Part shown: one piece after another, positions 1,352 to 16,642 of the stretch
Position numbering within the stretch: position 1 is the stretch's first letter
Layout of the letters: every line of letters begins with the position of its first letter
Assembly (NCBI GenBank): GCA_014381305.1
Contig: JACNLW010000056.1
Coordinates: forward strand, 1-41,198
DNA: 41,198 nt
Source: Planctomycetota bacterium
Lineage (GTDB): Bacteria; Planctomycetota; Phycisphaerae; Phycisphaerales; SM1A02
Reading direction: 5' to 3'
Made by a program: the position numbers and the translations under genes
The notes under the pieces: model-generated
Database searches by the model: none
What the model was told of the DNA's origin: nothing
Seen by the model: only the letters and a program-made list of their open reading frames with translations

Positions 1352-3040
1352 TTACTCTGGATTTGGCCAAACTACCCAATCTCCATCTGGAATAGAGGTT
1401 GGAATGCCATGCCATTCCATAGCACCAAAGACATGTCTACCACCATCATCATCGCCATCATTCCCAACAGAGTAAATCACTGGCTGTTCGTTTACGATTG
1501 TAATTTTCCATGGCTCGTCATTCCAAGGATCAACAACACCCGCTTCTGCTAAGTCTAGAGGCCACTTGCCTGATGCTTGATGTTGTTCGATTGCAAAAAG
1601 TGTTGCGAGCAAGCCATCGCGATTCGCTGCGGCGTATTTGCTTTGAAGTAACGCGCTATCAAGCGCGGGAATGAGGAGATCAACGGGATAATATTTATTC
1701 AAATACCGTTTGGCCGTCCGAACTACAAGTTGAGAACTATATTCAGAAAGTTCATCTCCCCAAGCATAGAGTGGGTCATCACGAACCTCATACATCAGCG
1801 CAAGAAAATCATCATGGTGATCGAGTAATTCTTTTCTCGAAGCGATCAACACATCGCCAATTGGAGCGAGTAAAAATGACGCTGTTGGCTGTGGATTTAC
1901 TTGGCCCGTTGCATCATGCGACAACGACATTGCTTCAAGCAGTTTTCCAGGTACTAATACGCCATCCCCGTTGCCGTCGTCAGTAAATGTTCGTTGCAAT
2001 AAATCTAGAATATACAATCTCTCACCATCAAACCGGACCTTGAGTTCTTCATCCAAATCGCTGAGGTGTTGGCGTAACGCACTGATTTCTGGAGATAACA
2101 CTTCTGGTGTTCGTTCAACTATTAAACCAATAGTTTGAAAAGTCATCCTGTAAATTGAAAGAGATACGAGATCATTAATCAGCGTGGAATGTTCACGAGT
2201 GTGCGTAGCGAGACGTAGTAGTGCTTCTAGATCTTGAAAGCACCTACTCCCGTCACCTTGCGCTGCAGCTTCTATTGCATCAAATCGAAGAAGCCTAGCC
2301 ATCCTTCTCAAATGTACAAGTTGTGGGTACAACACATTGATCATATGATCGCTAAAGTTTGTTTGAGATTTTTCATACGCATCTGGCCAAAGTTCTTTAT
2401 CTTCTTCACTTATTTTGCCGCCAACGATAAAACCCATCCCTTGTTTCTTCGTACCCTGCAGAATAAGCGGGAGCGTCTCTTGATGTACATCAAGCCACAC
2501 TGCGTATTCCTCCCAACCAGCATCACCAACCCATGTTGGATAGACAGGTCGGCCATCTACTTCGGGGCTTGGTTCGTTGTTTTCATTCAGCACAATACTC
2601 GCAGCGCGGTACAGTGGCCACGCACGTTCGTCTTCTGGAACAGCTGCAGCAGTTTCATTTAGTTTTGCGACATAATCAACAGCAATATTTGGTTTTCGTT
2701 GCAACGCAAGCAAAACCAACACCATATAGACAACAAGAAAACAACCAAACATAACGGCGGCGAACTTCATCGACTTTACAAATGCAAGTTCAACCCACCA
2801 CCGTTTTCGTTTGCATGCACTGCGTAAAAGTTTCGCAGCAGTCTTTTCATTTCCATAAGCAGTGATCACCGCACTCGTCGATTCTCCTGATGCTAGTGCA
2901 TCTTCAAAGTGCGACACCAGTTCGCGAGCTACATCGAGTTGTTCACTTCGACGAAGCCTCGTCCGCCGTGCAATACGGCGAATGAGTTTTTGAATTTCTT
3001 CAGGTAACTGCGTCGCTTGTAATTCTTTTTTAATTAACAT
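1352..3040 (-). CDS. Membrane protein with N-terminal HAAS-like domain, PadR-coupled
   Basis: A 562-residue protein. I chose the ATG at 3040 because it overlaps the padR stop as TAATG, a typical translational coupling; a TTG two codons upstream is possible. Residues 1-80 are charged and helical (LPEEIQKLIRRIARR, LDVARELVSHFEDALASG), like the HAAS domain often encoded next to PadR regulators. A single membrane helix lies at about 92-113. The remaining ~450 residues are extracytoplasmic and mostly helical, with no motif I recognise; the end (IPDGDWVVWPNPE) is aromatic. In other bacteria HAAS/PadR pairs are thought to control membrane-associated processes. The specific role here is unknown. Confidence 0.8.
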   Translation of the reverse strand: MLIKKELQATQLPEEIQKLIRRIARRTRLRRSEQLDVARELVSHFEDALASGESTSAVITAYGNEKTAAKLLRSACKRKRWWVELAFVKSMKFAAVMFGCFLVVYMVLVLLALQRKPNIAVDYVAKLNETAAAVPEDERAWPLYRAASIVLNENNEPSPEVDGRPVYPTWVGDAGWEEYAVWLDVHQETLPLILQGTKKQGMGFIVGGKISEEDKELWPDAYEKSQTNFSDHMINVLYPQLVHLRRMARLLRFDAIEAAAQGDGSRCFQDLEALLRLATHTREHSTLINDLVSLSIYRMTFQTIGLIVERTPEVLSPEISALRQHLSDLDEELKVRFDGERLYILDLLQRTFTDDGNGDGVLVPGKLLEAMSLSHDATGQVNPQPTASFLLAPIGDVLIASRKELLDHHDDFLALMYEVRDDPLYAWGDELSEYSSQLVVRTAKRYLNKYYPVDLLIPALDSALLQSKYAAANRDGLLATLFAIEQHQASGKWPLDLAEAGVVDPWNDEPWKITIVNEQPVIYSVGNDGDDDGGRHVFGAMEWHGIPTSIPDGDWVVWPNPE

Positions 3041-11275: not shown

Positions 11276-12400
11276 TCAACCGCAATGCACTAGATCGGGT
11301 GATTTTCGATTTGGAATTTCTATGAGAGGAGTCATCTCTGATTCTGTTATTTCTTCAAGAATCATGTCACGTCTTGCGCCTCGCAGTGAATCAATTGCAA
11401 CACGTGCATCTCTATGTGGCAACGATAAAATGAACGCAACTTCTTCAGAAACAGACATCGCCTGCACTGGGAGTGCTTCCGATTCACGCTTACGCCGGCG
11501 AACAGTAACGCCTGAAAGAAACAAAGCAATCAAACCTAAAACCATTGCCCACTGTTTGGCAGATGATTCAGCTGCCTCAGGTTCACCTCCAACAATGGCA
11601 ACATCGTGAACAACTGATATTTCAACAAGTGATCCTGGGGCAGCACCATCGGCAATATGCAAAATGTTTTCCATGACTGTTTCGACATTGCCAACTTGCG
11701 ATGCTCGCAGGGTTACCCACGACCTTGGAAGAGTCAATCGTACAAGAGGTCGCTTGTTTTCTATCCAAGGGATAAAAAGTTCGCCTTCTGGCGGGGTAAC
11801 CATGTCTACTTGGACTGTTGCAACATTCAAACCGATCGCACTCGCTACAGCGATTCGAACGCTTTCACTATTTAACTGTGGTGAAGAAATTGGTTGATCC
11901 TCCCCAGTACAAATCAAACCGTCTCGATTATCTATAACAGTCACATCTTCGACCAGCAAATTTGACACACTGCTAGCAACCAGTTTCGTTACAGATGCAA
12001 TTTCATCCAAACTAAGCCTTGCATCTGTCGCTGGCGTCACTGTAACGCACGCTGTAGACGGTACATATCGATGCCCAAGACCTTTGCTTTCCTGCAGAGA
12101 AAGGACAACTTGCGCCTGAGTTATTCCTGATAGCCCCTCGATCAATGATGTCAATTCACCTTGCAATGCAAGCCGCCTGTCATTTCTTTGCTCTGCCATT
12201 GACTTTGGGACCATTTTTCCCCAGATTGATTCTTCAGGTTCAACCTCTACAAATGCAAATTCTTGGGAAGTTTCAGATTCCGGTTCACTTTCCCAATTCA
12301 CCATCCACAGAATACCCAGAGTGAATGCAATAGCACAAACCACGCCGAAAATTCGAGCACCGTTGAATTGTCTAGCCGCCATGGGCGAACCGTCTTTCAC
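11276..12400 (-). CDS. FliF/YscJ-like two-TM protein with FliG-like tail
   Basis: A 374-residue protein starting at GTG 12400 (GAGAGGA ribosome site; ATG 12382 is an alternative). A membrane helix lies at about 16-34 and a second at 283-300. Residues 81-165 resemble the ring-building motif of FliF/YscJ proteins: ELTSLIEGLSGITQAQVVLSL, a TACVTVTP strand, LSLDEIASVTKLVASSVSNL and DVTVIDN. A second strand-helix-strand unit follows (RLTLPRSWVTLRA to SLVEISVVHDV). The C-terminal cytoplasmic part (SEEVAFILSLPHRDARVAI, about 318-350) looks like a FliG/MgtE-N helix pair. FliF is usually ~550 residues, so this is a short relative. No flagellar or secretion gene is nearby; a membrane ring is inferred only. 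Confidence 0.65.
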   Translation of the reverse strand: MKDGSPMAARQFNGARIFGVVCAIAFTLGILWMVNWESEPESETSQEFAFVEVEPEESIWGKMVPKSMAEQRNDRRLALQGELTSLIEGLSGITQAQVVLSLQESKGLGHRYVPSTACVTVTPATDARLSLDEIASVTKLVASSVSNLLVEDVTVIDNRDGLICTGEDQPISSPQLNSESVRIAVASAIGLNVATVQVDMVTPPEGELFIPWIENKRPLVRLTLPRSWVTLRASQVGNVETVMENILHIADGAAPGSLVEISVVHDVAIVGGEPEAAESSAKQWAMVLGLIALFLSGVTVRRRKRESEALPVQAMSVSEEVAFILSLPHRDARVAIDSLRGARRDMILEEITESEMTPLIEIPNRKSPDLVHCG

Positions 12401-12506
12401 GAATCATCCTCTCCGTGCAAGCAACAAGAATAGACTTGTGCAAACAGACAATTTGACTTCGCATCCGTGCGCAGTCAGTACCCGTTTATCGGCTCAAAGG
12501 AGGGTT

Positions 12507-13457
12507 TTACCCGTCATTTTTTTTAATGTTTTTTGGTTTGCGACTCAGAATTAACATCAACACAACAAAAAAGATAACCGTTGTGACGATCATCATCGTC
12601 AATTCAATGGCTTCGACGCTGCCATATTGCTCCGAAAGATCTACAGGTTCTGTTCTCTTGCCAGAAGGCCAACCAATACTAAAAGCAGTCGAAGTACCGT
12701 TTCGCTCTACTCCAAGCACATGCAATCCATCGCTATCAACAACCGACCAGCGACCAGAAGGCTTAGAAAAGGATGAGATTTTCATTTGCTTCCCTTGTTG
12801 GAGTCCGATGATTTCAACCAGATCATCATGCGTCGTAATCAAAAGTGGCCAACCGTCGTGTACTACGAGATCTTGCAATTCTCCATTGATCTCATGCTTC
12901 TCACCTGCTTGCCACGATCCATCCTTCAAGGTGTAGAGGGTGACGATGTTCATATTTGAAACGGCACCTATCAAATTGCTGCCTTGCATTGCAACATGTG
13001 CATCATCGCCAGTGAGTTCAGAAGTTATCGCTAGACCCTTCATGTCAAAGCACTGCACCCCACCATTATCAATAACGAATACCGGCTCATCCTGCATAAA
13101 GACGAGATCACGAACCAATCCCTGTATTTCAAGTGGAGTTACGGCAGTTGCTCTGCCTCGAGGAACTGTTCGCAGATCTCCTGTTGCCTGATTTTCAACA
13201 AGTCTCGCACGATAAAGTATTGGCGGATCACTATCTCCAACAAACCATAAGGTTTGGCCGTGCATTGCAAGCGCAATTGGTCTCTTTGCGAGTGGAAGAA
13301 CAACTTGAAATGTATCTTGGTCAATTTGATGGCAGAGTTCATGCTGCGGGCCAATCATTCCCGGCTCGGTGTCACGGACAAACCAAACTCCTGCATCATT
13401 CCCTGTCGCCATCAACGGTTGTGTTGCAAGAACACTTGCAAGCACAAAAGATATCAT
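12507..13457 (-). CDS. Secreted protein with C-terminal membrane anchor
   Basis: A 316-residue protein with a short signal sequence (MISFVLASVLATQPLMATG), an extracytoplasmic part of repeated short beta strands (VWFVRDTEPG, LWFVGDSDPPILYR, LVFMQDEPVFVIDNGG, WPLLITTHDDLVEI, GLHVLGVERNG) and a C-terminal membrane helix near 288-306 followed by a basic tail RKPKNIKKNDG. The strand pattern suggests a beta-propeller facing outward. It starts inside the stop of the upstream lipoprotein gene (4-base ATGA overlap), so it belongs to the same operon. No family is recognised. Confidence 0.75.
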   Translation of the reverse strand: MISFVLASVLATQPLMATGNDAGVWFVRDTEPGMIGPQHELCHQIDQDTFQVVLPLAKRPIALAMHGQTLWFVGDSDPPILYRARLVENQATGDLRTVPRGRATAVTPLEIQGLVRDLVFMQDEPVFVIDNGGVQCFDMKGLAITSELTGDDAHVAMQGSNLIGAVSNMNIVTLYTLKDGSWQAGEKHEINGELQDLVVHDGWPLLITTHDDLVEIIGLQQGKQMKISSFSKPSGRWSVVDSDGLHVLGVERNGTSTAFSIGWPSGKRTEPVDLSEQYGSVEAIELTMMIVTTVIFFVVLMLILSRKPKNIKKNDG

Positions 13458-14233
13458 TGTGCCAACCCAGTCGTTTTGATTGGTTTTAGTGCTCTTTGGA
13501 GAAATTTCAAATCGAACACTCTGTCCATTCGCTCTTCATTTGTGTCAGTAGAAATCCACGCAAAATCTATTTTTGTCATTGCATCTTCTGTCGTGCTTTT
13601 AATATCAATTAACCCACCAGTGACCGGCCAAACCAATCTGTTTTTGTCCATCAATTCAACTTTGATGCCTTTGCGATGCAACGCTGAAATGTGATGGAGT
13701 TCGTCTGATACTTCTATCTCAAGAACGCGGTGTGTTGTTGGGTCAAACGTTGCAATCCATGTGCGTTCATTTGTTTGCACAGTGACAACTCCCTTCTTCA
13801 TTGTCATGTCCCCATTTGGTAATGGGTTTAATCCAAGCAAGACTAGGGTGTCGAGAATATCTGAAAAAATAACATCTTTTTGGTTTATTGATAATGTTGT
13901 TTCATCACCAAGCATGTCAAACATCCAATGGTTTTGTTCATCGCCGCCCATCCAAATCAGAACCTCACCTGCTTTAGAAACTCGGAGTGAAATAGAATTC
14001 CCCAACCGCCAAAAATCGAAATCGCCTTGCACCCGATGTAATCCATCATCATCACGCCAATGAAATTCGATGACACCTCGTCCAACCAACGCATTGAACA
14101 GCGCTGTTCTGCTCTTTTGTTGTGCTCTGATTTCTTCGGGTGTACTACTTTTTGGATGTGATGTTGTGGCACTTTTCTGTCCACAAGAAGCCATCACGAT
14201 GAAAAAAAAACAAAAAATTACCCGCAACATCAC
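13454..14233 (-). CDS. Lipoprotein of unknown function
   Basis: A 259-residue lipoprotein. The N-terminus MMLRVIFCFFFIVMASCGQK has a lipobox with Cys at residue 17, so it is anchored to a membrane by lipid. The mature part looks like an antiparallel beta sheet (IEFHWRDDDGLHRVQGDFDFW, NSISLRVSKAGEVLIWMG, VTVQTNERTWIATFD, RVLEIEVSDE), which suggests a LolA/LolB-type half-barrel; this is only a fold guess. It overlaps the genes on both sides by 4 bases and so is translationally coupled. Confidence 0.75.
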   Translation of the reverse strand: MMLRVIFCFFFIVMASCGQKSATTSHPKSSTPEEIRAQQKSRTALFNALVGRGVIEFHWRDDDGLHRVQGDFDFWRLGNSISLRVSKAGEVLIWMGGDEQNHWMFDMLGDETTLSINQKDVIFSDILDTLVLLGLNPLPNGDMTMKKGVVTVQTNERTWIATFDPTTHRVLEIEVSDELHHISALHRKGIKVELMDKNRLVWPVTGGLIDIKSTTEDAMTKIDFAWISTDTNEERMDRVFDLKFLQRALKPIKTTGLAQ

Positions 14234-14745
14234 ATGTCGCCTTGCAATAAATCGCTCAATTGGTCAGAAAGTCCATGAATTTCATCTTCTTGAATACCCG
14301 GATTATGCACTTTTGCCACTGCTCCATCGGTTCCTGACCATCGCAAAAGCCACGTTTCACCACCCTCTGCTTCCTCGCGACCTACAAGTTTCAGCTTCCT
14401 TTTTCGGAGTAAAACGAGTGCAATGATGTACCTGAAAGCAATTCTTTGAGGCCGATCATCACCTTCGAGACGTTCAAATAGATCTACTAAAACTGCCTCA
14501 TCGATGACAATATCGGGCTTTTTACCCTCTTCAGGGGTGATATATCGCCAATGACTAAATAATCGATCTGGCCGTTTCCCCTGCTCCCATGCCTCGATGG
14601 AATAGTCAAATCGTTCGAATCCCTCATCCTCTTCCCGCTCGCTGAGCGCAGCGATTGCAGGGGTCGCATGGGGGATTTCTTCGCCAGTTGCCGCGCACTT
14701 GCCTGTTGGGCGAGAGACGCCTTGTGAACTTCCAAATCGTGCCAT
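14230..14745 (-). CDS. Conserved-looking small cytoplasmic protein, first gene of the FliF-like cluster
   Basis: A 171-residue soluble protein with no signal or membrane segment. The N-terminus carries a KCAATGEEI motif, which could be half of a metal site. Then come an acidic linker, a WRYITPEEG segment and the helical part AVLVDLFERLEGDD with RIAFRYIIALVLLRKRKLKLVG, followed by two strands. I do not recognise the family. It starts 41 bases from the divergent cdaA and overlaps the lipoprotein gene by 4 bases. Confidence 0.7.
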   Translation of the reverse strand: MARFGSSQGVSRPTGKCAATGEEIPHATPAIAALSEREEDEGFERFDYSIEAWEQGKRPDRLFSHWRYITPEEGKKPDIVIDEAVLVDLFERLEGDDRPQRIAFRYIIALVLLRKRKLKLVGREEAEGGETWLLRWSGTDGAVAKVHNPGIQEDEIHGLSDQLSDLLQGDM

Positions 14746-14786
14746 AGATGAGAATCCTACGGTATCCGCGTATACTTTGAGTGACT

Positions 14787-15632
14787 ATGGGCTGGAATCT
14801 TTTTGGATACGATGTTTTAGAGACAATTGTCGAGTTACTCGTCATCGGCGTGTGCGTCTTTTTTGCGCTCAGGTTCTTACAAGGAACTCGTGGCGGAGGT
14901 GTCATCAGAGGATTAATTGTCCTCTTTGTACCGCTTGCTATTCTCGTTGCACTTGCAAATACTTCTGGTCATTTCGAGAGACTTAACTTTTTCGCAGAGC
15001 AGTTTGTTACATACGTGTTTCTCTTGTTGATTATTATTTTCCAACCAGAGTTACGACAAGCAGCGATCCGAGTTGGGCAAACTGGTTTGATTGCAAGATT
15101 ACGTAGTTCTTCGTCAGTGGGCAGTTCTACAATTTCTGCAATCAGTGCATCTTCTTCTTACCTCAGCCGTAATCAGTTTGGTGGGCTTATTGCAATCGAA
15201 AGAGAAAATACAACCAACGATCACACTGTTGGTGGACAAGAACTTGATGCGACAATAAGTGAACAACTTCTTACATCAATTTTTTGGCCAAACAATCCAC
15301 TCCACGATTTGGGTGTTGTTGTTCGTGGCGATCGTATCCTGCGAGCATCTTCGCAATTTCCACTTGCTGATGAGTCGATAAAACTTCCGGCAGATCTCGG
15401 TTCGCGGCATCGCGCAGCAGTTGGACTTTCCATGCGATGTGATGCCTTGATCGTGATAATTAGTGAGCAAACTGGTCGAGTCTCTATTGCTGACCACGGG
15501 ACCCTAAGTGTCATTGACCGAGACGAACTAGAAAAAGAGTTACTTTTACGACTTGAGCGCAAACAAGAAGACACAGTAATAAGTGACGTAAATGAACCTG
15601 CGTCACAAATATCGCCGGAATCTGTAGAATGA
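14787..15632 (+). CDS. cdaA: Diadenylate cyclase CdaA with altered DGA motif
   Basis: A 281-residue membrane enzyme of the CdaA/DacA family, which makes c-di-AMP from two ATP. Three membrane helices lie at about 11-30, 38-57 and 69-86, followed by the DisA_N domain. The RHR motif is intact (GSRHRAAVGLS, RHR at 207-209), but the canonical HDGA motif reads HDLGVVV (DLG at 174-176): Gly is replaced by Leu and Ala by Gly, with the metal-binding Asp kept. A -10-like TATACT at 14771-14776 sits just before the ATG and no strong ribosome site is visible, so translation may be nearly leaderless; GTG 14781 is an alternative. It overlaps ybbR by 4 bases. Confidence 0.88.
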   Translation: MGWNLFGYDVLETIVELLVIGVCVFFALRFLQGTRGGGVIRGLIVLFVPLAILVALANTSGHFERLNFFAEQFVTYVFLLLIIIFQPELRQAAIRVGQTGLIARLRSSSSVGSSTISAISASSSYLSRNQFGGLIAIERENTTNDHTVGGQELDATISEQLLTSIFWPNNPLHDLGVVVRGDRILRASSQFPLADESIKLPADLGSRHRAAVGLSMRCDALIVIISEQTGRVSIADHGTLSVIDRDELEKELLLRLERKQEDTVISDVNEPASQISPESVE

Positions 15633-16642
15633 AACGTAGCGACAACACACTAACTTATTTGTTTGTCATAGTTCTTACACTCATGGTGTGGCTTTGGGCA
15701 GCGGGAAACACTAAAACAGACACAATCCTGAATGTTGAAATTTATTTCAGCCCTCCTGAAGGCTCTAATAGTATCATTTCTCCCGCTTCAACAACAGTAA
15801 CCGTAACTTTCCATGGTCCAAATTCAAGTCTTAAATCCGCAAAGGAAGCATGCGCAGATGGACTAACACTTACGGTTCCTACAACAAGCGGAACAACTGA
15901 AATTAGTTTAGCTGCACGCATTGCAGAACTAGACACCATTCGTTCTACTGGTGTTGAAATTTCTGACATCGATCCAAAAACAGTTGACCTGCGTGTCAAT
16001 ACAATGGTTACTGTTGAAGCGTCAGTAGTTCCTGTTCTTAACGGCGTGCAGATCAGTGGAGACATTACTGTTGATCCAGCTACAGTAACACTGCTCATTC
16101 CAAGTTCAATAAGAGACACGCTGCCAGAAGCAATAAAAGTTGAAGCAACACTTCCGCCAAGTGAGCTCGCACTTCTTCAACACGGTGTGATACAAACAAA
16201 AGTCGCTGGAGTGCGACTCCCAGTCCCCCTCAACCTCCCCGGCGTAGTAGTAGAACCAAGTACTGTCTCAATTTCTTTTAGAATACAGTCAAATACTGCA
16301 AAAACTGATGTTGCACAAGTTCGCGTTCTCCTCGCGGGACCCGCCGAAGATTACAGTGGGTACTCCATAGAACTCCCTCGCAAATTTATCTCTAACGTCA
16401 CCATTGAAGCAGATGCTGAACTTATTGAACGAATTGAAAGTGGAAAAACTACGGTGTTTGCAATTGTTCGTCTTGCATCGAGAGATATGGAACTAGGTAT
16501 TGAGCAAAAAACTGTGACTTCATTCTTAGCCATTACAGAAGATGGCAGTGGACACGAAGTAAAAGCCACGCTCGAAGACCCAACTTTATTTAACATTGAA
16601 CTTGAAATAAAACCGGTTGATCCAAAAGAAGTTATAGAGTAA
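15629..16642 (+). CDS. YbbR-domain protein (CdaR-like), partner of CdaA
   Basis: A 337-residue protein with one N-terminal membrane helix (LTYLFVIVLTLMVWLWAAG, about 8-26) and an extracytoplasmic part of repeated beta-rich YbbR domains. Repeated units can be seen around VEASVVPVLNGVQISGDITVDPATVTLLIPSS-like segments and again at VVVEPSTVSISFRIQ. In Firmicutes CdaR regulates CdaA through the membrane, and the 4-base gene overlap here supports the same pairing. The usual third gene glmM is missing: the unit ends here, facing tyrS. Confidence 0.85.
   Translation: MKRSDNTLTYLFVIVLTLMVWLWAAGNTKTDTILNVEIYFSPPEGSNSIISPASTTVTVTFHGPNSSLKSAKEACADGLTLTVPTTSGTTEISLAARIAELDTIRSTGVEISDIDPKTVDLRVNTMVTVEASVVPVLNGVQISGDITVDPATVTLLIPSSIRDTLPEAIKVEATLPPSELALLQHGVIQTKVAGVRLPVPLNLPGVVVEPSTVSISFRIQSNTAKTDVAQVRVLLAGPAEDYSGYSIELPRKFISNVTIEADAELIERIESGKTTVFAIVRLASRDMELGIEQKTVTSFLAITEDGSGHEVKATLEDPTLFNIELEIKPVDPKEVIE

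Follow-up and report, generated by a model that had tools for sequence, protein, structure and literature searches.

A 41,198-nt stretch of DNA from a Planctomycetota bacterium of the SM1A02 lineage (referred to below as the window) encodes a FliF/YscJ-like membrane protein of 374 residues next to genes for a predicted beta-propeller protein, a lipoprotein-like protein and a small protein without a hydrophobic stretch. A preliminary description of this DNA saw in the four genes a possible envelope-spanning ring system with an orphan FliF/YscJ-like protein. The locus raises the question of whether a new ring is encoded here or a remnant of a known one, and what such a ring could serve.

Table 1. 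Positions of the features of the locus within the window
Feature	Position	Strand	Evidence
fliF-lite (374-aa reduced FliF, GTG start)	11276..12400	-	ORF, Pfam YscJ_FliF, alignment, AlphaFold/Foldseek/VIA, dN/dS
Putative cytoplasmic tail of FliF-lite, residues 315-374	11279..11458	-	covered in 13/13 genus genomes
Predicted TM2 of FliF-lite, residues ~280-307	11480..11563	-	model helix 280-307, hydropathy 282-301
RBM3 of FliF-lite without beta-collar insertion, residues ~176-267	11600..11875	-	alignment, model, VIA-align
RBM2 domain of FliF-lite, residues 67-160	11921..12202	-	profile matches, VIA-align
Putative sigma28-type -10 element GCCGATAA, 93 nt upstream of fliF-lite start	12486..12493	-	
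316-aa predicted beta-propeller with one C-terminal TM helix	12507..13457	-	structure prediction, pLDDT 82
259-aa lipoprotein-like protein	13454..14233	-	hydrophobic stretch then Cys at start, by eye/hydropathy
171-aa protein without hydrophobic stretch	14230..14745	-	hydropathy; match in 54/54 family genomes tested

The reduced FliF and its neighbours

The coordinates and open reading frames first described (374, 316, 259 and 171 aa, all on the minus strand) are correct, and so is the family of the 374-aa protein: Pfam YscJ_FliF is matched at 1.9e-17, far beyond chance, with 64.1 bits against the curated cut-off of 24.4, and profile search finds no other YscJ/FliF match in the window's genome. 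In an alignment with eight canonical FliF proteins of 547-587 aa the protein, hereafter FliF-lite, has the order TM1-RBM2-RBM3-TM2 followed by a different cytoplasmic tail; RBM1 is absent, and so are the beta-collar and the tail with which canonical FliF ends. The ring-building motif and the two TM helices noted earlier are thereby recovered, the former as RBM2 and RBM3 and the latter as membrane-length helices that flank these two domains on both sides in an AlphaFold model, in agreement with hydropathy. The model is of modest confidence (monomer only, 8 sequences, pLDDT 67, pTM 0.32); its residues 68-267 superpose on FliF 125-438 in VIA-align, and its RBM2 aligns with chain 8wkq_WJ at Z 15.0 (rmsd 1.8, 99 aligned). 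ACVxV, a version of the A-S-V-x-V-type motif, is kept in 8/8 full-length FliF-lite members. FliF-lite scores 41.2 bits against the NCBIfam fliF equivalog TIGR00206 (cut-off 129.75), as expected of a protein without RBM1 and the collar, and 25.9 bits against the injectisome SctJ equivalog TIGR02544 (cut-off 161.95); comparison with PHROGs gave no match. Judged by its sequence, the protein is a true but reduced FliF, the flagellar MS-ring protein, and not the building block of a new ring.

The other three genes form a unit of their own. The 4-base overlaps that were said to couple three genes are the two 4-bp junctions inside this trio, and a gap of 106 bp leaves the start of fliF-lite uncoupled from the 316-aa gene. 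The propeller with its single TM helix and the lipoprotein, proposed earlier, are both upheld, by structure prediction in the first case and, in the second, by a lipoprotein-type start recognized by eye. The propeller protein carries an RDD domain at its C-terminus in two relatives; no Pfam or NCBIfam family was over cut-off for the 259-aa or the 171-aa protein. Of ten stretches taken from genomes without FlhA, all matched the lipoprotein gene, nine matched the propeller gene and none matched FliF. The trio, which other genera have without either FlhA or FliF, is a flagellum-independent unit, so the novelty of the cluster as a whole was rejected.

The fliF-lite gene also has a putative sigma28-type promoter element of its own, named for its likeness to the sigma28 -10 consensus. 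Upstream of fliF-lite, GCCGATA is exact in 9/13 genus genomes and has one mismatch in the other 4; it is found in 14 of 351 ORF upstream regions of the same loci, 9 of these 14 belonging to fliF-lite. In 5/5 full loci scanned, this element also lies downstream of the propeller gene (G135, where the propeller gene had no match, was left out). By eye, a sigma28 -35 box is neither evident nor conserved upstream of fliF-lite; the sigma28 gene itself is present in 13/13 genus genomes.

In a flagellated relative the locus runs trio - TPR protein - FlgN-like - kinase - sigma54-type regulator - rod genes - FliF - FliG - FliH - FliI; in this genus it is reduced to trio - FliF. Because rod genes, FliF, FliG, FliH and FliI come next at this locus in flagellated relatives, the window shows a flagellar locus that is mostly deleted. 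FliF-lite shares with canonical FliF the locus position as well as the domain order and motif, and differs from it in the missing modules and in the absence of FliG_C from its genome. This arrangement is best explained if the gene in the window is the original fliF of the genus, shrunk in place following the loss of the flagellum. The preliminary description had set the cluster apart from known flagella and type III systems, and on its own terms the finding that the cluster heads a flagellar locus in flagellated relatives counts against it; what it took for a four-gene cluster is a three-gene unit adjoining a fliF that has a separate promoter element. A single four-gene, envelope-spanning ring system is hardly credible: the gene order is conserved in the genus, but the trio occurs without FliF elsewhere, the locus is a shortened flagellar one, and the propeller gene has no match in two loci of the genus (L083 and L084).

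Export gate, rotor and rod genes in the genus

Each of the 13 genus genomes has FliF-lite or a shorter form of it. The protein is no orphan, because 7 of these genomes, that of the window included, encode a flagellar export gate elsewhere (FliOPQR-FlhBA, accompanied by FlhF and sigma28). FliP and a near full-length FlhA match were each obtained in 7/13, and in G066 the FliP, FliQ, FliR, FlhB and FlhA families were all over cut-off. None of the rotor, ATPase and rod/hook families of a functional flagellum was found by profile search in the genus (FliG_C, FliM/N, FliI over cut-off and Flg_bbr_C, each 0/13), absences that rest on profile thresholds in mostly fragmented assemblies. As controls, FliI over cut-off and FliM/N were found in 8/8 family relatives with a separate FliG, and FliG_C in 83/181 family genomes; the Flg_bbr_C search covered the 13 genus genomes and 14 named control genomes, with a family that omits some rod proteins. 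G222, which has a FliF-FliG_C fusion, had neither FliI over cut-off nor FliM/N. FlhG was matched in only 3/13 genus genomes. The FlhB cleavage motif NPxH is absent from 7/7 FlhB proteins of the genus and present as NPEH in 4/4 aligned relatives; exact NPTH occurs in 0/18 loci, relatives included. The earlier judgement that the system is unlike a known flagellum or injectisome stands.

The flagellar genes of the genus are under purifying selection. Between the gate-bearing genomes G000 and G153, dN/dS is 0.138 for FliF-lite, 0.056 for FliP, 0.071 for FlhA and 0.134 for FlhB. A decaying relic without function would agree with the small size of the window's genome (1.88 Mb) and with the many flagellar genes gone; set against purifying selection, retention of FliF in 13/13 genomes with its tail in all, and a kept promoter element, it is highly improbable.

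Gate-less genomes and the FliF tail

In 6/13 genus genomes the gate channel, made up of FliOPQR-FlhB and the N-terminal portion of FlhA, was not found. RBM2 is over the Pfam cut-off in 7/7 gate-bearing genomes and in 1/6 gate-less ones, namely G144, where it is kept although the gate is gone. Five gate-less genomes encode the cytoplasmic domain of FlhA (FlhA_C) and FlhF in one ORF of 802-832 aa, and the sixth has a 585-aa part of this ORF at a contig end; the FlhF P-loop is kept in 6/6. The cytoplasmic tail of FliF is kept in 13/13 genomes, and in the gate-less ones it is still attached to its membrane anchor. Missing contigs as the cause of gate loss were rejected for L123, L125, L126 and L127, whose contigs reach the LptE/FtsH side with the fused gene and sigma28 in place (L124 and L128 lay outside this check).

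A five-gene tree, built with FastTree and repeated with IQ-TREE from five genes linked at one locus, places RBM2 losses in three lineages and the gate-less genomes in separate lineages. Trees of FliA and FtsH, with lower support and fewer genomes, also separate the gate-less genomes, and a single loss of the gate was rejected. In the tree of the fused FlhA_C-FlhF gene, by contrast, all six gate-less genomes group together, and an AU test on this gene rejects the five-gene topology (p ~1e-51). The conflict may reflect either convergence or lateral spread between members of the genus.

For FliF-lite, neither the canonical FliG-binding tail nor a FliG partner is present. By hhalign the genus tail has no significant match to FliG_N, FliG_M, FliG_C or canonical FliF tails: the probability against FliG is 1.7-2.7%, with a score of 16.8 that exceeds 40/40 column shuffles (maximum 15.9), the upper value coming from a profile enriched with g3 and g6 tails. 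In g3, another FliG-less genus, one FliF has Pfam FliG_N at 27.4 bits (cut-off 25) and a second scores 18.0, under the cut-off; against FliG_N by hhalign the g3 tail reaches 92% and the g6 tail 43% alone or 87% pooled with g3. A FliG_N origin of the genus tail is thus favoured only by analogy with g3 and g6.

It is possible, if rather unlikely, that the whole assembly is a non-secretory scaffold or checkpoint in which the FliF tail, FlhA ring, FlhF GTPase and sigma28 serve positioning or regulation, the channel being incidental and already dispensable. The tail persists in all genomes while RBM2 and the channel get lost, FlhA_C and FlhF are joined with an intact P-loop where the gate is gone, the sigma28 gene and the element at fliF-lite are kept, and a role in positioning the proteins of the MS-ring and the gate has been proposed for FlhF (PMC7064773). 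However, an incidental channel would not need the strong constraint seen on FliP, FlhA and FlhB.

Proposed function and known systems

We consider it probable that the genus retains a flagellar export core that lacks rotor and ATPase and is encircled by FliF-lite, and that in some lineages this core is turning into a channel-less scaffold. In the 7 gate-bearing genomes FliF-lite would assemble RBM2 and RBM3 rings around the FliPQR-FlhB-FlhA gate; each domain is able to form rings in isolation (PMC8786727). With no FliI, the proton motive force would power export; the flagellar export ATPase is dispensable in Salmonella (PMC4230889). The classical substrate switch would be unusable, FlhB lacking its NPxH cleavage motif. 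The FliF tail (60-70 aa) may dock on the FlhA cytoplasmic ring, by analogy with Chlamydia, where the C-terminal 70 aa of FliF bind FlhA_C in vitro (PMC2830194), and expression of fliF-lite would depend on the kept sigma28. In gate-less lineages the tail and the FlhA_C-FlhF fusion would persist, presumably as a non-secretory scaffold. More tentatively, a flagellar export machine may be turning, within one genus, into a non-exporting, sigma28-controlled, membrane-tethered GTPase scaffold of flagellar parts; our literature search found no such system. A nanotube or hat-like inner-membrane platform built from the kept FliOPQR-FlhBA is very unlikely. The gene set is the fT3SS core implicated in both, a role in nanotubes being cited in PMC7277350, and the hat-like structure tracks fT3SS genes independently of FliF (PMC9380563), but a hat that forms independently of FliF gives no reason for RBM2 to be kept in FliF-lite of 7/7 gate-bearing genomes.

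Chlamydia, a non-flagellated PVC relative, likewise combines a reduced FliF (341 aa) with FlhA (PMC2830194) and sigma28 (PMC10597470). It differs in that FliI, FlhA and FliF (with a neighbour) and a separate injectisome are named there (PMC2830194), whereas our genus keeps the flagellar gate in 7/13 genomes, and FliI was not found in any of the 13. Non-flagellated Lysobacter enzymogenes also has a gate without a flagellum; it exports heterologous flagellin, and some of the flagellar T3SS parts are needed for twitching, but it keeps FliI (PMC7277350; FliF has 0 occurrences in that text). Like the genus, the NF-T3SS of Myxococcales is flagellum-derived and without motility-essential parts; it is thought to translocate proteins and was proposed as an intermediate toward injectisomes, themselves thought to derive from the flagellum by losing motility parts (PMC3459982). 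The genus belongs to another lineage, and in it FliI and FliM/N were also not found.

It appears that a group of small-genome marine bacteria lost the flagellum but kept its protein-export core and a cut-down ring, and that some relatives then lost the channel. The genus and its relatives are a natural test of what a reduced flagellar machine can become. They make testable which FliF domains an export gate needs (in the genus, only gate-less members lack RBM2) and whether a gate can function when ATPase, C-ring or FlhB cleavage is lacking. The role left to FlhA_C and FlhF once the channel is gone likewise becomes testable. The states of flagellar loss, whose order is unproven, stand side by side among close relatives: a full locus, a FliF-FliG_C fusion, a FliF-FliG_N fusion, a rotorless gate with minimal FliF, and no gate.

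A reduced FliF protein in the window

The four open reading frames of the preliminary description lie where it had placed them, and the 4-base overlaps it reported are confirmed (4 bp at each of the two junctions within the three upstream genes); the gene of the 374-residue protein starts 106 bp beyond these three, i.e., outside the overlap chain. The assignment of the 374-residue protein to the FliF type, with two transmembrane (TM) helices and a ring-building motif (RBM), is borne out by Pfam, alignment and AlphaFold/Foldseek. YscJ_FliF is the sole Pfam family over the cut-off in this protein (residues 67-160, 1.9e-17) and the match is the only one in the genome; no family of Pfam or NCBIfam passes the cut-off in the three upstream proteins (a 171-residue, a lipoprotein-like and a beta-propeller protein, together the trio). 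Alignment with eight canonical FliF proteins of the order shows that the protein retains TM1, RBM2, RBM3 and TM2, lacks RBM1 and the beta-collar insertion, and ends in a different C-terminal segment of ~60 residues. We refer to this protein as FliF-lite and to its C-terminal cytoplasmic segment as the tail. The order of helices and strands in the AlphaFold model (pLDDT 67, pTM 0.32) corresponds to that alignment, and the best Foldseek matches of the model are FliF MS-ring structures (9a67, 1.8e-12). In VIA-align, RBM2 of the model gives Z 15.0 and rmsd 1.8 over 99 residues, and model residues 68-267 correspond to Salmonella FliF 125-438 (RBM2 plus RBM3) with a large overall rmsd (9.9 for 7bk0_B). 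Four distinct PDB sequences were matched by the sequence profile, all of them flagellar M-ring proteins and one fused to FliG; a FliG_N origin of the tail is unproven. The A-S-V-x-V motif, which is required in other FliF proteins and for which a role in export-core recruitment or ring formation was proposed (PMC7064773), is present as A-C-V-x-V in all eight full-length members from the genus.

Coordinates of the features in the window and in stretches from relatives
Feature	Stretch	Positions	Strand	Remark
FliF-lite	window	11276-12400	-	374 aa
Beta-propeller gene	window	12507-13457	-	trio
Lipoprotein-like gene	window	13454-14233	-	trio
171-aa gene	window	14230-14745	-	trio
FlhA_C-FlhF fusion	L123	7904-10402	-	
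FlhA_C-FlhF fusion	L124	232-2730	+	
FlhA_C-FlhF fusion	L125	4499-6907	-	
FlhA_C-FlhF fusion	L126	7595-10027	-	
FlhA_C-FlhF fusion	L127	6647-9136	-	
FliF-FliG_C fusion	L133	10106-11986	+	G222, genus g116; natural single ORF of 626 aa
FliF with FliG_N end	L100	6555-8111	-	genus g3; over cut-off
FliF with FliG_N end	L105	60-1652	+	genus g3; below cut-off
FlhF-like protein	L129	9070-10005	+	genus g6
FlhF-like protein	L130	6899-7924	-	genus g6

Origin of the locus, and an export gate on other contigs

The cluster of the window is a flagellar locus stripped of most of its genes, because the trio heads a full flagellar locus in relatives and adjoins the reduced fliF in the genus. In the flagellated relative G084, the trio adjoins cdaA and is followed by genes of a TPR protein, a FlgN-like protein (30.0 bits, just below the cut-off of 30.5), a histidine kinase and a sigma54-type response regulator, after which come a Flg_bb_rod protein at the FlgB position, two ORFs that look by eye like FlgC and FliE, and then FliF, FliG, FliH and FliI. 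The same order of matches to the reference proteins tested was found in four other genomes (G262, G041, G075 and G033) and, in part, in G135. In the genus, the trio leads directly to the reduced fliF and then to a DegT-family gene; the propeller match is absent from the loci of G155 and G158.

The idea that the four genes form one system is not supported: the trio is independent of the flagellar genes and occurs without FliF in FlhA-negative genomes. Ten stretches from such genomes (four reported negative in the FlhA search, six not among the matches listed) contain no FliF match; the lipoprotein is matched in all ten, the propeller protein in nine (missing in G037) and an adjoining cdaA in six. 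All 54 family genomes tested have the 171-residue protein. G084 and G239 have an RDD domain in their propeller proteins; Pfam found none in that of the window. In the window (14230-16642), the trio and cdaA-ybbR (c-di-AMP synthase) are divergently oriented, an arrangement shared by the genus and many relatives, flagellated or not.

Nor is FliF-lite an orphan, as had been proposed, since the flagellar export gate (FliOPQR-FlhBA) is encoded on other contigs of the same genome. FlhA (716 bits) is on a second contig together with ORFs taken to encode FlhB, FlhF, FlhG and sigma28, and FliO, FliP, FliQ and FliR, the last truncated by the contig end, are on a third. These genes form a single run in the sister genome G066, where each of the six gate proteins is over the cut-off for its expected Pfam family, FlhF matches SRP54, FlhG ParA/CbiA and sigma28 the sigma70 regions. 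Among the 13 genomes of the genus, which are fragmented assemblies in which absences rest on profile thresholds, FliP is present in seven, and profile searches found FliG_C, Flg_bbr_C (rod and hook proteins) and FliM/N in none. FliI over the curated cut-off is likewise found in none of the 13; the weaker matches are below ~230 bits, and similar ones occur in FliI-bearing relatives. All eight tested relatives with a separate FliG are positive in both the FliI and the FliM/N search. Family-wide (181 genomes), FlhA is present in 126 and FliG_C in 83. A flagellar set including fliG was reported for a genome of family M1A02 (PMC9119077). Seven loci in a contig scan come from Phycisphaerae, Phycisphaerales or Planctomycetota metagenome assemblies. 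Among the matches listed, with the subscription literature mostly outside, titles and abstract openings on Phycisphaerales or Planctomycetes flagellar genes, remnant or non-flagellated systems, FlhA-FlhF fusions, Chlamydia and nanotube cores describe no such system.

Co-loss of the gate and the ring, and a probable sigma28-type promoter

The gate and the ring part of FliF go together in the genus. The Pfam YscJ_FliF domain is found in FliF-lite of 7/7 genomes with FliP and of 1/6 without it (G144); of the other gate-less proteins, three retain an RBM3-like part, and in two the second TM helix and the tail alone remain, with a different N-terminus. The tail is covered in all 13 genomes. RBM2 was lost in three lineages according to the tree of five window-locus genes, and gate-less genomes are likewise not united in the trees of FliA (13 genomes, support 53-100) or FtsH (11 genomes).

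Five gate-less genomes encode the FlhA cytoplasmic domain (FlhA_C) and the FlhF GTPase in one ORF of 802-832 residues, and the sixth, G155, has a 585-residue part of the fusion at a contig end. Pfam domains, computed for G144 alone, are FHIPEP (225-656, 4.3e-68) and SRP54 (6e-42). The P-loop of the FlhF part is intact in all six, and the tree of the fused gene conflicts with those of neighbouring genes. A sigma28 gene adjoins flhF, flhG or the fusion in 13/13 genomes.

The heptamer GCCGATA, which we take as the core of a sigma28-type -10 element, is found upstream of fliF-lite exactly in nine of the 13 genomes and with one mismatch in four (shuffled-window control: mean 0.09 of 13, maximum 3). 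It precedes 14 of 351 mechanically called ORFs in the same loci, nine of the 14 being fliF-lite. No conservation of a -35 box was seen by eye. Since the same heptamer lies 24-72 nt past the propeller gene in all five full loci scanned (G084, G262, G033, G075 and G041), fliF-lite is probably now driven directly by the ancestral flagellar-operon promoter. After the propeller gene, the heptamer is absent from 6/6 FlhA-negative, 4/4 g3 or g6 and 1/1 g116 loci. An exact GCCGATAG is present upstream of ftsH in L048, L049, L051 and L126, and ftsH is a possible further sigma28 target. The interval from flhG or flhF to the sigma28 gene (e.g., L033 ~1750-1825, minus strand) holds another element, [AG]CCGATAAC, with AACC/GGTT repeats nearby; by eye this element occurs in the examined stretch of 7/7 gate-bearing and 2/6 gate-less genomes.

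Proposed mechanism and other reduced states

We infer the role of the system from anatomy, selection and co-loss. FliF-lite would insert into the inner membrane, and its RBM2 and RBM3 may oligomerise around the FliPQR gate. RBM1, which was reported to block oligomerisation of RBM2 in vitro (PMC8786727), is absent from FliF-lite. FlhA_C may dock onto the tail, by analogy with Chlamydia, where the C-terminal 70 residues of FliF bind FlhA_C in pull-downs (PMC2830194). Export could be powered by the proton motive force and dispense with FliI, as is possible in Salmonella mutants (PMC4230889). The persistence of the FlhA_C-FlhF fusion and the tail in gate-less lineages suggests a separate use for the cytoplasmic side there.

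The substitution rates suggest function: between G000 and G153, dN/dS is 0.138 for FliF-lite, 0.056 for FliP, 0.071 for FlhA and 0.134 for FlhB (comparison genes: TyrS 0.036, DegT 0.076). For FliF-lite it is 0.226 between G093 and G152 and 0.135, with dS close to saturation, in the gate-less pair G155/G158. The FHIPEP region seems intact by eye in 7/7 full-length FlhA proteins of the genus. The N-P-x-H cleavage site is missing from 7/7 FlhB proteins of the genus and is NPEH in 4/4 aligned relatives; late substrates were reported to need this cleavage in Salmonella (PMC7911332), and therefore the site has no evident use without rod, hook and filament.

Other reduced states exist in the family. 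G222, which carries the FliF-FliG_C fusion, has FlhA, and profile searches found in it no FliI over the cut-off and no FliM/N. FliG_C was not matched in g3 or g6, and FliI over the cut-off or FliM/N was found in 0/6 (g3) and 0/7 (g6) genomes tested. In g3, a FliG_N domain forms the C-terminal end of the G008 FliF (27.4 bits, cut-off 25), and the G281 FliF scores below that cut-off (18.0 bits); the beta-collar also seems by eye to be absent from the FliF of L100 and L105. In g6, the ORFs at the FliF position (363 residues in G023, 473 in G239) are weakly FliF-like, with 17.9 bits, below the Pfam cut-off, for G023 and no Pfam match for G239; the FliF-lite profile of the genus matches G239 and G230 at ~1e-4. 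The g6 FlhB (G120, G231) has 232-234 residues and leaves the last third of the Pfam model unmatched. The g6 FlhF-like proteins, in which the P-loop lysine is apparently replaced (GAPGSGVTR in L129, GSPGSGVTR in L130), adjoin a short FlhB without the cytoplasmic domain (FlhB checked in L130 and L132). In G248 (C45:8579-10552, minus strand), an FlhA match lies within an open frame of 1171 residues, far longer than FlhA.
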